Assembly (NCBI GenBank): GCA_002839675.1
Contig: PGYM01000002.1
Location: 228,111-292,110, forward strand
Source: Methanomicrobiales archaeon HGW-Methanomicrobiales-1
GTDB taxonomy: Archaea > Halobacteriota > Methanomicrobia > Methanomicrobiales > Methanospirillaceae
DNA length: 64,000 bases
Direction of reading: 5' to 3'
The notes beneath the pieces are model-generated. The model searched no databases. It was given only the letters and a program-made list of their open reading frames with translations, and was not told where the DNA came from. The stretch's first letter is position 1. Each line of letters opens with the position of its first letter. Position numbers and translations under genes: made by a program. Below, one piece after another: positions 29,304 through 33,016 of the stretch.

Positions 29304-30183
29304 TGCCCTGCGAAAGCAGGGATACCAGTTTTTTTCAAAGACTTCAGGCGCTGCTCTCAAGCCCTGCATGTGGTGCAAACGGGCACTTATGGGCGGTGAC
29401 ATGTGTTACAAGCACCAGTTCTATGGGATTGACAGCCACCGTTGCGTCCAGATGACCCCCACCCTGCGCTGCAACCAGCGCTGCCTATTCTGCTGGAGAT
29501 CCTACGAAGAAGAGATGCCCGAGGAAAAGGAGTGCTCTCCGGAAACAATTCTGGCCGGATTACACAAGTTCCAGAAAAAAGCTCTTGCCGGGTACAATTC
29601 CATCCTCGATAATACAGTCACTTCCGAAAAGTGGCAGGAAGCCCTGGATCCAAAACACGTCGCGATCTCGCTCTCCGGGGAACCGACACTCTACAGCCAG
29701 CTCCCGGCGCTGATCGATCTCTTCAACGATAAAGGCTATACAACATTTCTCGTGAGCAACGGAACAAATCCTGACATGCTCCGGAGGTGCCACCCGTACC
29801 AGATGTATGTCTCGCTCGATGCGCCGGATCGGGAGACCTACATCGCGGTATGCCGCCCGGAGGAGGATTACTGGGAGCAGGTAAATGAGAGCCTTGCCCT
29901 GCTGGGAACGCGGCGATCCGCAGTGCGGATTACCCTTGTCAAGGGTCTCAACGATTTCTCTCCGGAAAAATACGCCGCGATCCTGCAGGATTCGGGCGCG
30001 TCATTTGTGGAAGTGAAGGGATATATGTATCTGGGATACAGTAGAAACCGGTTGGCTAGAGAGAACATGCCGGCGCATGAGTATGTACGATCGTTTGCAG
30101 AAAAGATTGCAGCAGCGTGCGATTACCGGTTTAAAGATGAGAATATTTTGAGCAGAGTGGTCTGCCTGGAGCGTATAACATGA
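29284..30183 (+). CDS. taw1: tRNA 4-demethylwyosine synthase (Taw1)
   Basis: Radical-SAM enzyme building the tricyclic wyosine core at position 37 of tRNA-Phe from N1-methylguanosine and pyruvate. Motifs include [20 protein letters not shown], the cluster motif CNQRCLFCW and the [10 protein letters not shown] segment characteristic of TYW1/Taw1; extra N-terminal cysteines fit a second [4Fe-4S] cluster. The ATG at 29284 lies within argS (20-base overlap). The stop overlaps the sepS ATG. No flavodoxin domain is fused, as expected for archaea. Confidence 0.95.
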
Positions 30184-31832
30184 GATTCAATCCCGAAGAA
30201 TGGAAGCGAAAATCACGTGAGAATTTTGAAGGTGCATGGCATGAAGGGCCATCTGTAGTTACACCGCCGGGACATGCGGCAACATACCCATGCCTTACGT
30301 TCAAACGGGCCCAGGCGCACCCGATCTTTGCCACGATAAACCGGCTCCGCGAGACCTACCTTTCGCTGGGATTCGATGAAGCCGAAAACCCAGTCATCAT
30401 CGAGGAACAGGACATCTACCGGCAGTTCGGCCCCGAGGCAATGGCCGTGCTCGACCGGGTCTTCTATCTCGGGGGACTTCCCCGTCCGAACGTGGGGATC
30501 GCCCGGAAACAGCTCGATGAGATCAATGAGATCCTGATGAGCCATCGGAGCCCGCTCGCACACGGGGATACCGTGCCGGTCGAACAAGCTCACCTGCATG
30601 AACATTACAAATCCATGACAAAAGAAACCGAGGAGCACCTGCGCGAGACGCTCCACGCGTACAAGAAATCGGAGATCGACGGGGACGAACTGACCTTCGA
30701 GCTCTCCAAGGTGCTTGGGGTGGATGACGCGCTGGTTGTGCACATCCTCGACGTTGTTTTTCCGGAGTTCAGGGCACTCGTTCCGGAATCTTCGCGTTCA
30801 ACGCTCCGCAGCCACATGACGAGCGGCTGGTTCATGACTCTCGGAGCGATCTGGGAGAAAACAGCGCTTCCCATCCGTATGTTCTCAGTTGACCGGTGTT
30901 TCCGGCGCGAACAGGCTGAAGGGCCGACCCGTCTCATGACCTATCATTCGGCATCGTGTATCATTGCCGGAGAAAATGTCACCATTGAAGATGGTAAAGC
31001 CGTCAGCGAGGCACTCCTTTCCGCATTCGGGTACACTGATTTCCGGTTCCAGCCGGATGAGAAACGTTCCAAGTATTATATGCCGGATTCGCAGACCGAG
31101 GTCTATGCCCGCCACCCGGTACATGGCTGGGTTGAGGTGGCAACGTTTGGGATGTACTCCCCCTCAGCACTTGCCGAGTACGGTATCGGCGTACCGGTCA
31201 TGAACCTCGGGTTAGGTGTAGAGCGACTCGCGATGATTGCGTACAATTCAAATGACGTCCGTCAACTCTGTTTCCCCCAGTTCTTCCCCCGACCCATTAC
31301 TGACCGGGATATTGCCCGGGCGGTTCATGTACGGGAAGAACCGGCATCCCCGGAAGGAAAGCAGCTTGCAGCAGCAATTATCCGTGTCGCTACCGCAAAT
31401 GGCGCCGCTGCCGGACCATGCTCATTCGATGCATGGGAAGGGACTCTTGGCGGAGTAGCGATAAAAGTGGCAGTAGAAGAGCCGGAATCCAATGCAAAGC
31501 TCTGCGGTCCCGCCTGCGCCAATGAAATATTCGTCCATGAAGGATCGATTCTGGGTGTGCCGGATGTTGAGAAGTGGAAACAGGCGCGGACAGAGGGAGT
31601 CTCAACCGGCATCAGCTACCTGAGCGCAGTTGCAGCGCTCGCCGCTGCCCGCATCGAAGAAGCTGCCCGGTGCGGGAAGGCCACCACGGTGCAGGTGAAG
31701 ATGGCAAAACTCCCCAGTGACATTAACCTGAAGATCGAGGAGTTCGCAATGCGTGCAATAACAGATAATAACAAAAAAGTGGACGTAAGGGGCCCGGTAT
31801 TCCTTTCCGTCAGTTCAACAATCAAAGAATAA
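30180..31832 (+). CDS. sepS: O-phosphoseryl-tRNA(Cys) synthetase
   Basis: Class II synthetase that charges tRNA-Cys with O-phosphoserine, the first step of tRNA-dependent cysteine synthesis in methanogens; SepCysS then converts it to Cys-tRNA. The 550-residue length and N-terminal [19 protein letters not shown] fit the family. [15 protein letters not shown] and [20 protein letters not shown] form the class II core, and [10 protein letters not shown] is motif 3. ATGA overlap with taw1. A T-run follows. SepCysS and a CysRS are not in the window. Confidence 0.95.
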
Positions 31833-31843
31833 TTTTTTTTCTT
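31833..31843 (+). terminator. T-run after sepS
   Basis: Eight consecutive T residues begin directly after the sepS stop codon, a typical archaeal U-tract terminator for the prf1-argS-taw1-sepS run. Confidence 0.6.
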
Positions 31844-31934
31844 GCTCTGGACAAATCCTCTTGCTCTTTTGGATTCTCTCACTTTTTTTGCGTTCATAAG
31901 TATTGATTATCTATCACGCTTTCAAGTCAGGGGG

Positions 31935-32103
31935 AGGATGGGGGTCGCGTGGGTACATTTGCACGGCCTAAACTCAACCCGTGACCCTGAATCTGCCACT
32001 CATTCCCGGCAGGTTAACGGCGTTGAGATCATTCCACAGGATCACGAAAACCGCAGGAGGTACTGATGGCAATTATCAAGTGTACCCACGCGACCCCCTC
32101 CAT
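31935..32103. mobile_element. MITE-like inverted-repeat element
   Basis: A 169-bp segment bounded by inverted repeats. The left end (31935-31961) and the reverse complement of the right end (32077-32103) share GGGGGTCGCGTGGGTACA exactly and match at 22 of 27 positions overall. No transposase and no obvious target-site duplication are visible. The interior is moderately GC-rich and carries a strong SD (AGGAGG, 32055-32060) before a 15-codon frame starting at 32066 that runs through the right end. The design suits a MITE, a regulatory dyad or a structured RNA. Confidence 0.45.
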
Positions 32104-32176
32104 GCCCACTTGAATTCCGGACATATTTTATCCTGATTTACGTCGACGATTGGTGTTTTTTGTGCCGGGATCCACT

Positions 32177-32308
32177 GAGGGGGGTCACATGGGTACAGTT
32201 GGAATGCCGGGGTGACTCCCGAAACCCCGTGGGTCACGGTAGATGATGGAAACATTCCTGATCACCCCCTCCGGGAATCAATGCTCAAAATGGGGGTCTC
32301 GTACATAT
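32177..32308 (+). repeat. two further copies of the inverted-repeat end
   Basis: The core of the element at 31935-32103 recurs twice in direct orientation: GGGGGTCACATGGGTACA at 32180-32197 and a shortened GGGGGTCTCGTACA at 32292-32305. The stretch between them (32198-32291) holds no gene. The four related copies in 370 bases suggest a site family, not one isolated palindrome. Confidence 0.5.
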
Positions 32309-32358
32309 GTTAGAAATAGATAACATTAATATGAAATAGTGTTAGAAATAGATAACAC
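32307..32358. promoter_or_regulatory. paired dyad operators upstream of the DUF2178-HTH pair
   Basis: TGTTAGAAATAGATAACA occurs twice, at 32308-32325 and 32340-32357, 32 bp (about three helical turns) apart. Each is a dyad TGTTA-N8-TAACA. The flanking base pair differs, A..T in the first copy and G..C in the second, so symmetry is kept at both sites. A TATA-like TTAATATG lies between them. Most likely the autoregulatory binding site of the HTH protein encoded two genes on. Confidence 0.75.
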
Positions 32359-32373
32359 ACAGGACTGATAGAA

Positions 32374-32760
32374 ATGAAACCCAGAAATCTCTACCGCATA
32401 ATCATCGGAATACTAATGATCATCAGCGGTATCGCTTCCATGATCCTGACCGCGGGTGAAGCCATCATCGGGACTATCCTGCTTGTAGCAGGACTTGCCT
32501 TCCTTATCACGGGGATCACCCGGCACCGGCAATATGGGAATGAGCCGGAATCTGATGAGCGCTCAAAAAAGATCGGTGCATACGGGCTGTCCTATGCATG
32601 GCTCACCGGCCTGCTCTTTATGTTCTGCCTGTTCTGGCTGGATTATCTGGGACTATTAAGGCTGGGAACCCAGGTTGCACTTGCACTGTCCATTGTCGTG
32701 CTTGCACTCTCTGCCCGGCTCTATCAGATCTATCTGTTCCGGAAAGGGGATGTGGAATAG
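32374..32760 (+). CDS. DUF2178-like integral membrane protein
   Basis: A 128-residue protein with four predicted transmembrane helices (about 7-27, 29-47, 72-92 and 97-117) and a polar loop, QYGNEPESDERSKKIGAYGL, between the second and third. The DER-(S/T)-x-x-I-x-x-x-A/G pattern and size match DUF2178 proteins, which commonly precede small XRE regulators in bacteria and archaea. Function unknown; sensing membrane or envelope state is a guess. Its promoter carries two operator dyads, and the regulator gene follows after 22 bases. Confidence 0.75.
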   Translation: MKPRNLYRIIIGILMIISGIASMILTAGEAIIGTILLVAGLAFLITGITRHRQYGNEPESDERSKKIGAYGLSYAWLTGLLFMFCLFWLDYLGLLRLGTQVALALSIVVLALSARLYQIYLFRKGDVE

Positions 32761-32782
32761 GATATAATTGGAGTACACAATT

Positions 32783-33016
32783 GTGCAGACCAGAATCAAA
32801 GAATTCCGGACGCGTTTTTCCCTTACACAGGATGATCTCGCAAAAAAAGTAGGTGTGCGAAGGGAGACAATCGTCTTTTTGGAACAGGGAAAATATAATC
32901 CGTCCCTCAAACTCGCCCATGATGTAGCCCGGACCCTGCATACCACGATAGACGAACTCTTCATTTTTGAAGACGAGGTGCAGGGACAGGAAAGCGGGAT
33001 CGTTCTCGAAGACTAG
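32783..33016 (+). CDS. small XRE-family HTH transcriptional regulator
   Basis: A 77-residue single-domain Cro/CI-type regulator. The five-helix HTH spans [20 protein letters not shown] through [35 protein letters not shown] contains the recognition helix. This is the short YozG-like class usually paired with DUF2178 membrane proteins. I chose the GTG at 32783, eight or nine bases after TTGGAG; a TTG at 32768 would add five residues. It likely binds the twin dyads at 32307-32358 and represses its own operon. Confidence 0.88.

Follow-up and report, generated by a model that had tools for sequence, protein, structure and literature searches.

The array described here lies downstream of sepS in a genome of the genus Methanoregula (G000), within a window of 64,000 nucleotides, which is the whole stretch of DNA that was analysed. 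It consists of three sites with the 18-bp core GGGGGTC-RYRY-GGGTACA, at 31940(+), 32081(-) and 32180(+). The features of the region are as follows.

30180-31832, plus strand: sepS, encoding O-phosphoseryl-tRNA synthetase (SepRS_C), the left neighbour
31843-31859, plus strand: left-end-like sequence TGCTCTGGACAAATCCT, 1 mismatch to the terminal repeat of the IS5-type MITEs of the genus
31843-32270, plus strand: probable extent of an inserted MITE-like element carrying the array, right end uncertain
31940-31957, plus strand: core 1 (C1), GGGGGTCGCGTGGGTACA, exact match, member of the conserved triple
32014-32026, no strand: M1, weak palindromic motif TTAACGGCGTTGA near the C1/C2 midpoint, placed by eye
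32081-32098, minus strand: core 2 (C2), exact inverted GGGGGTCGCGTGGGTACA, C1-C2 distance 141
32137-32149, no strand: M2, palindromic motif TTTACGTCGACGA (family consensus TTTTACGWCGTAAAA) at a fixed position in the C2-C3 spacer
32180-32197, plus strand: core 3 (C3), GGGGGTCACATGGGTACA, 2 mismatches to GGGGGTCGCGTGGGTACA, C2-C3 distance 99
32308-32325 and 32340-32357, plus strand: TGTTAGAAATAGATAACA in duplicate, operator-like repeats belonging to the gene pair that follows, outside the array
32374-33016, plus strand: gene pair encoding a 128-aa probable membrane protein and an 82-aa HTH_3 protein, the right neighbour

A first-pass annotation of this DNA had reported an 18-bp core inverted at both ends of a 169-bp segment, followed by two variants, which made four related sites. 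The inverted pair was confirmed as exact (C1 and C2), and spans 159 bp from outer edge to outer edge. One of the two variants is C3; the other, at about 32290-32305, is only a 13-nt partial match that was not found at up to 3 mismatches, nor at up to 4 with the middle positions free, so that three sites are present. As reported, the segment carries no transposase gene. The window contained 3 core matches at up to 3 mismatches, whereas 100 shuffles of the window averaged 0.07 and never exceeded 1, and the longest exact inverted repeat in 31900-32330 was 18 nt, compared to at most 14 nt in 100 dinucleotide shuffles. The inverted arms around C1 and C2 reach 31 nt and are 84% identical (31931-31961 and 32077-32107). 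M1 is recognisable in only part of the array family, and an automatic search picked another position for it in the window. The extent given for the inserted element rests on similarity to a non-orthologous copy (L053), which starts 106 bp before C1 and stops 64 bp after C3.

The surroundings of sepS were compared across the genus. A sepS match was present in 36 of 39 genomes, and 30 loci were read, that of the own genome included. Three cores lie downstream of sepS at three of these loci (G000, G006 and G008), a single core remnant at one (G022), and none at the other 26. At 11 of the 26 core-less loci the operator-like repeats of the gene pair, with small changes, directly follow sepS, and the remaining core-less loci have a different downstream neighbour; G006 and G008 have the array and lack the gene pair. 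The core-less relatives and the two arrays without the pair indicated that the array was inserted beside sepS independently of the gene pair. The duplicated 18-bp TGTTAGAAATAGATAACA is likely to be the operator of the pair's HTH protein, and the array was ruled out in that role because relatives keep the pair's own repeats without the array. A single-core attachment site was likewise not supported, because array-less sepS loci show no core where one would be expected; a few G-rich matches with 3-4 mismatches at these loci were taken as chance. Mobility, as raised by the first-pass annotation, withstood both comparisons that could have removed it: 26 of the 29 relatives' sepS loci lack the array, and a search of the core in the own genome and in relatives found further copies. 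As far as genome comparison can tell, these data show that arrays have been gained at new loci.

The own genome contains six arrays with this core type (type 1), the window array among them. Among the 232 genomes of the order that were searched, 12 contain an exact C2-C3 core pair; all 12 belong to the genus Methanoregula, in records labelled Methanoregula sp. or Methanomicrobiales archaeon. Outside the genus the search covered the exact type-1 pair only, and other core types may occur in near genera that have close relatives of the protein described below. In total, 61 unique C2-C3 pairs were collected, and a third core was present in 51. Few array loci are common to different species. The arrays lie in convergent, tandem and divergent intergenic regions, with genes called from open reading frames and a home-made codon score that missed some genes. 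Among 43 triples with both neighbours called, orthologs included, tandem contexts were lopsided, with 22 in which the genes point from C3 to C1 and 4 in the opposite orientation. Only two viral contigs (L169 and L170) carry an exact core, one in each; a viral origin of the core was considered and set aside.

Conservation of the cores was assessed at seven diverged orthologous pairs of dispersed arrays, the window being a member of two; five other pairs (four close species pairs and one further within-group comparison) were left out of the sum. Identity was 114/126 (0.90) for C1, 121/126 (0.96) for C2 and 119/126 (0.94) for C3, where the C2 and C3 values are partly selected because the pattern searches required exact C2 and C3 halves, and C1, which the patterns did not require, was called at 11 or more of 14 fixed positions, a mild selection. 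Over the same pairs the spacers were identical at 750/1301 positions (0.58) and the flanks at 1130/2100. This alignment comparison shows the cores to be constrained at orthologous loci. The four middle core positions vary mostly by transitions.

The geometry of the arrays is narrow. The C2-C3 distance was 96-100 in 59 of the 61 unique pairs, most of which came from a pattern open to 84-114, and 121 and 123 in the other two; it was exactly 99 in 38 of the 61, the window included. The C1-C2 distances of the 51 triples fell into the classes 103-107, 141-143, 150-154 and 164-165, the first of which is out of step with an 11-bp series. An M2-like motif was seen between C2 and C3 in all three array types discussed here. 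Its best match had at most 4 mismatches in 19 of 40 C2-C3 spacers, compared to 1 of 80 shuffled spacers, and in 33 of 40 non-redundant arrays it sits 3.5-4.5 bp off the C2/C3 midpoint; some C1-C2 spacers contain a weaker copy. Counted from C3, A/T-rich steps are repeated at about 31, 42, 53 and 63 bp, a pattern that may reflect helical phasing. At one locus (L055, 6178-6223) a tandem copy of C3 stands 28 bp beyond C3.

The array locus with the widest distribution is found upstream of a gene for a 167-aa protein. In the own genome this gene is located on contig C1 (G000, 423809-424306), with a type-1 array just upstream of its start. The protein family is multicopy; at E 1e-15 it was detected in 36 of 39 genomes of the genus, and at E 1e-6 in 191 of the 231 genomes of the order. 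The members scanned had no significant Pfam, NCBIfam or PHROG model, none of the HTH models matched the family, and the PDB gave no significant match to the protein; the sequence hints to DUF1508/YegP are weak (E 0.027; 2k8e, E 1.4). The HxH motif, which is the HUH signature, was absent from every family member examined.

In some genomes the DNA upstream of orthologs had the same layout with a different, internally consistent core (22 of 30 loci parsed). A blind search was then scored for any minus/plus/minus triple of 18-mers (out of 54) upstream of 70 family loci taken from the matches listed, 68 of which had enough upstream DNA. Scores of 43-54 were obtained for 29 of the 68 regions, compared to a maximum of 36 in 68 shuffles; these represent 28 distinct genes, since L192 and L231 are the same gene. 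The cores are nearly identical within each array and differ between paralogs, with spellings that include GGGGGTCRYRYGGGTACA, GGGGGTCAGTGAGGGACA, GGGGGTCTGTGGTGAAAA, GGGGGTCGGGCGGTGTAC, GGGGGTCGGGCAGGGGCA and GGGGGTCAGTGGGGATAA, among others. All 29 high scorers are at least 57% identical to the query protein, and their nearest core stands 64-185 bp from the start. Eight genes of at least 57% identity scored below 43 (L190, L197, L198, L200, L202, L206, L227 and L233), and genes under 52% identity had no clear upstream array, with a top score of 40 (L207). In the tree, which leaves out L192 and L206 and whose array labels include five rows scoring 38-43 (L190, L198, L200, L201 and L203), 30 of 30 array genes fell in one clade of 36 (100/100) and none in its sister clade of 31.

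Array-bearing proteins also differ in charge from the more distant family members. Set A1 of the family covers 60 of the proteins listed. Mean net charge was +6.2 for array-bearing proteins (0 to +10, n=25) and -5.5 for proteins under 52% identity (-10 to +4, n=32), with 12 further proteins (-2 to +10) in neither group. We read the basic shift in the array clade as support for DNA binding gained there. For a member of the array clade AlphaFold2 gave a confident model (pLDDT 93.5) with a mixed alpha/beta fold, and for an acidic paralog a model with nearly the same order of elements (pLDDT 92.4). Foldseek found no match at E <=0.001 in the PDB or BFVD. TATA-binding protein gave the leading structural rows for two family members, with Z 7.8 (rmsd 2.7, 83 aligned) and Z 8.0 (rmsd 2.8, 82 aligned). 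Its rows, at Z 6-8 with about half of the residues aligned, are at the level of a common arrangement, it was absent from the profile search of PDB sequences, and the match is equally good for the acidic array-less paralog and hence unspecific as to DNA binding.

Recognition of the core by the protein would predict that each core type is dispersed in the genomes that have its paralog. Matching of core types to paralogs covered the 68 upstream regions read. The type 2 core, from the own array of L211 in G000, had 14 matches in G000 and 7 in G006, own-gene arrays counted, one 2-mismatch match in G018, and none in the other 9 of the 12 genomes searched; two type 2 copies, one exact and one with 2 mismatches, stand upstream of the G006 paralog L200. 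The type 3 core (L216/L220) had 28 matches in G018 and 25 in G021, about ten arrays in each, and among the other 37 genomes of the genus 11 had one or two inexact matches, which is near the level of the backward control. A generic outward pair, GACCCCC-N70-100-GGGGGTC, matches the own genome at 11 places, of which six are type 1, four are type 2 and one is neither, and its backward control matches at none. One array of the own genome (L273, contig C1, about 748475) is a mosaic of a type-2 core and divergent cores.

Exact type-1 pairs were found in 12 of 26 genomes of the genus with an array-clade protein and in 0 of 13 without (Fisher p=0.003, a test that ignores phylogeny, with presence set by our cut of at least 50% best identity). 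Protein distance and core distance were correlated (Mantel r 0.52, 0/5000 permutations, n=25), a correlation that could come from shared ancestry of the gene and its linked upstream DNA. One genome, G016 (94% complete), has two type-1-like cores (L092) and no detectable protein of the family. In G012 (L185, C145) the family gene is interrupted by a stop codon, C2 of the gene's own array is degraded, and a search at up to 3 mismatches detected no further array; together these fit decay after loss of the protein. In G018, ten type 3 arrays (L262-L271) lie within 0.93 of 3.17 Mb (contig C1, 1.07-2.00 Mb; simulated p 8e-5, one inexact single match outside the arc being left out of the count), and this arc includes the cognate gene.

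The dispersed arrays are not simple copies of the array at the gene. In the own genome their spacing is 141-143/99-100, compared to 153/99 at the 167-aa gene, and spacings of dispersed and own-gene arrays differ in most cases. Because of this difference, the dispersed arrays probably descend from one another and not directly from the array of the gene.

These observations are best explained, in our view, by a 167-aa protein that is paired with its arrays and binds them, and the most likely cognate of the window array is the 167-aa protein encoded elsewhere in the same genome. The protein would bind the cores, with the constant GGGGGTC half recognised family-wide and the other half setting specificity; the three alternating sites, about 100-165 bp apart, would let protein units bridge or loop the DNA; and bridging at the protein's own gene would amount to autoregulation, which the gene-proximal array suggests. 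We consider this combination of binding, specificity, bridging and autoregulation probable, with room for appreciable doubt. Among the three options offered by the first-pass annotation (a mobile element, a cluster of regulator sites or a structured RNA), the cluster of regulator sites is the best supported, since the cores are conserved, are paired with a gene family and co-vary with it. More tentatively, the dispersed arrays may be anchoring or silencing sites of the same protein, spread by copying and partly within IS5-type MITEs, a step that we put a little below an even chance.

The main competitor shares the pairing of protein and array, and treats the 167-aa protein as a transcription factor with the dispersed arrays as operators of target genes. 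The own-gene arrays lie upstream of the start, with the nearest core 64-185 bp away in the 29 high-scoring cases, and in raw counts the array is upstream of the C1-side gene in 28 of the 43 triples, as an ordinary regulon would predict. However, 11 of the 43 triples (orthologs again included) have convergent neighbours, and in two relatives (orthologs L075 and L091) the counterpart of the window array is flanked by sepS and a helicase gene whose ends converge on it. The scarcity of array loci shared between species also argues against a regulon, as does the lack of a functional theme among the neighbours examined, namely sepS, helicase, methyltransferase, ribosome biogenesis, GAPDH-like and PAS proteins. 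Anchoring or silencing by bridging is therefore favoured with modest confidence, and an ordinary regulon appears rather unlikely. If the dispersed arrays were nevertheless ordinary operators, the claim of novelty would shrink.

A further explanation is that the array is an old non-autonomous IS5-type MITE whose cores are internal sites for a transposase or host factor, unrelated to the 167-aa protein. The window copy is an insertion, and its left-end match (1 mismatch) stands 97 bp before C1; the match recurs with 2 mismatches in the orthologs L075 and L091 and the paralog L053, and the reversed control never came under 6 mismatches in 51 arrays. In G018 and G021, 12 loci, some of them orthologous, share a 335-bp element with the left end TGCTCTGKAGAAATCAT and, in 11 of the 12, a right end like AGGTTTTCTMCAGAGCA. 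This subfamily looks like a true MITE with IS5-type ends: apparent 8-bp A/T-rich duplications were seen by eye at some copies, and a copy of about 1 kb in G006 combines the same ends with pieces of a transposase (DDE_Tnp_1, E 1.1e-12; IS5 family, E 1.1e-21, below the model's curated cut-off). Terminal inverted repeats shared with an autonomous element are seen in the G018/G021 subfamily; the window has the left end only, most arrays have neither end, and no target site duplication was recognised at the window. Against this explanation, the left end was found at up to 2 mismatches in just 9 of the 51 triples and the right end in 4; the 51 include five of the 12 MITE loci. Among the matches listed, several copies that are not orthologous align over exactly the stretch bounded by C1 and C3, both cores included, as do L107 and L116 of one genome, at 84%. 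Left-end matches are numerous across the genus, with as many as 139 in one genome, and far outnumber the arrays, and core type tracks the gene family. We therefore regard a MITE unrelated to the protein as improbable.

The cores were also rejected as MITE ends, since IS5-type ends, where present, lie outside them. The first-pass suggestion of a non-autonomous mobile element consequently holds in part: copies elsewhere, core-less sites and the 335-bp MITE agree with it, but the cores are internal and most arrays have no ends. Because the ends occur in few arrays and some copies run from C1 to C3 only, MITEs explain part of the spread of the arrays and not all of it. The end-sequence family of TGCTCTGTAGAAATCAT is very abundant in Methanoregula, reaching 139 end matches in a genome, and includes short elements, about 220-240 bp long, as well as an IS5-like copy (L171-L180, in G006, G017 and G018).

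That the inverted cores are stems of a transcribed RNA is extremely unlikely: C1/C2 and C2/C3 do form long inverted repeats, and RNAalifold drew a C2/C3 stem on both strands, but at core position 10, the most variable, C1/C2 mismatched in 23/51 and C2/C3 in 25/51, close to independence from base frequencies, which indicates that pairing is not kept, the C2-C3 spacer alone (one strand) had no consensus structure, its shuffles being without spread in energy, and Rfam gave no match near the gathering score at the window and only one tRNA and one sR3 match at ten other array loci.

The array system was compared with known systems. Autoregulated looping repressors use several spaced operators, and the three spaced sites at the gene of the presumed binder, with their narrow spacing classes, resemble these; in contrast to such repressors, the protein matched no HTH model, and copies of the whole array are scattered, often off promoters. 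The arrays resemble IS5-family MITEs in that the 335-bp element carries them in two genomes and the window has a left end, and differ in that most lack ends and that the cores are constrained after insertion. The closest likeness is to the RAYT/REP systems of bacteria, in which, according to the cited passages, a gene with its own repeats has cognate dispersed repeats that co-evolve with it and cluster locally in some genomes (PMC2817692; see also PMC3116915 and PMC3733652 for REP, BIME and REPIN elements). A search of open-licence papers found nothing relevant beyond these.

Several features of RAYT/REP, as those passages describe them, have a counterpart here. Gene-adjacent repeats that co-evolve with the gene correspond to the own-gene arrays and the Mantel correlation, and clustering near the gene corresponds to type 3 in G018; repeats likewise alternate in orientation at regular spacing, and their presence tracks the cognate gene, with G016 as the exception. 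There are also differences. RAYT is an IS200/IS605-type tyrosine transposase with a HUH motif, whereas the 167-aa protein lacks HxH and is unrelated; the REP unit is a palindrome of 20-40 bp, whereas the GGGGGTC-RYRY-GGGTACA core is not palindromic; and REPs usually number more than 100, compared to about 6-10 arrays per type where counted. Unlike RAYT/REP, the present system has three cores about 100-165 bp apart, and an order-wide protein family with many acidic paralogs that lack a recognisable array. Judged from sequence, novelty would rest on the protein and the array both failing the defining tests of this nearest known system.

A broader view, which we offer as a speculation of about the same standing as the anchoring role of the dispersed arrays, is that the basic family arose from acidic array-less ancestors and gave rise to parallel, insulated protein-address systems that organise the chromosome or spread in a REP-like manner. 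Each paralog would then have evolved its own three-site address at its gene together with scattered chromosomal copies, so that several such systems share one cell, and any REP-like spread would involve a protein that is not a nuclease. The data further suggest a role for transposon ends in moving protein-binding arrays to new sites in an archaeon.

If the proposed pairing is correct, methanogenic archaea would have in the 167-aa family a class of DNA-addressing proteins that is undescribed, in that it has no name in Pfam, NCBIfam or PHROGs and yet occurs in most genomes of the order. Several paralogs with different addresses in one genome would then constitute a natural experiment on the divergence of DNA specificity, and the protein-site pairs of a single genome would provide a ready set for tests of orthogonality.
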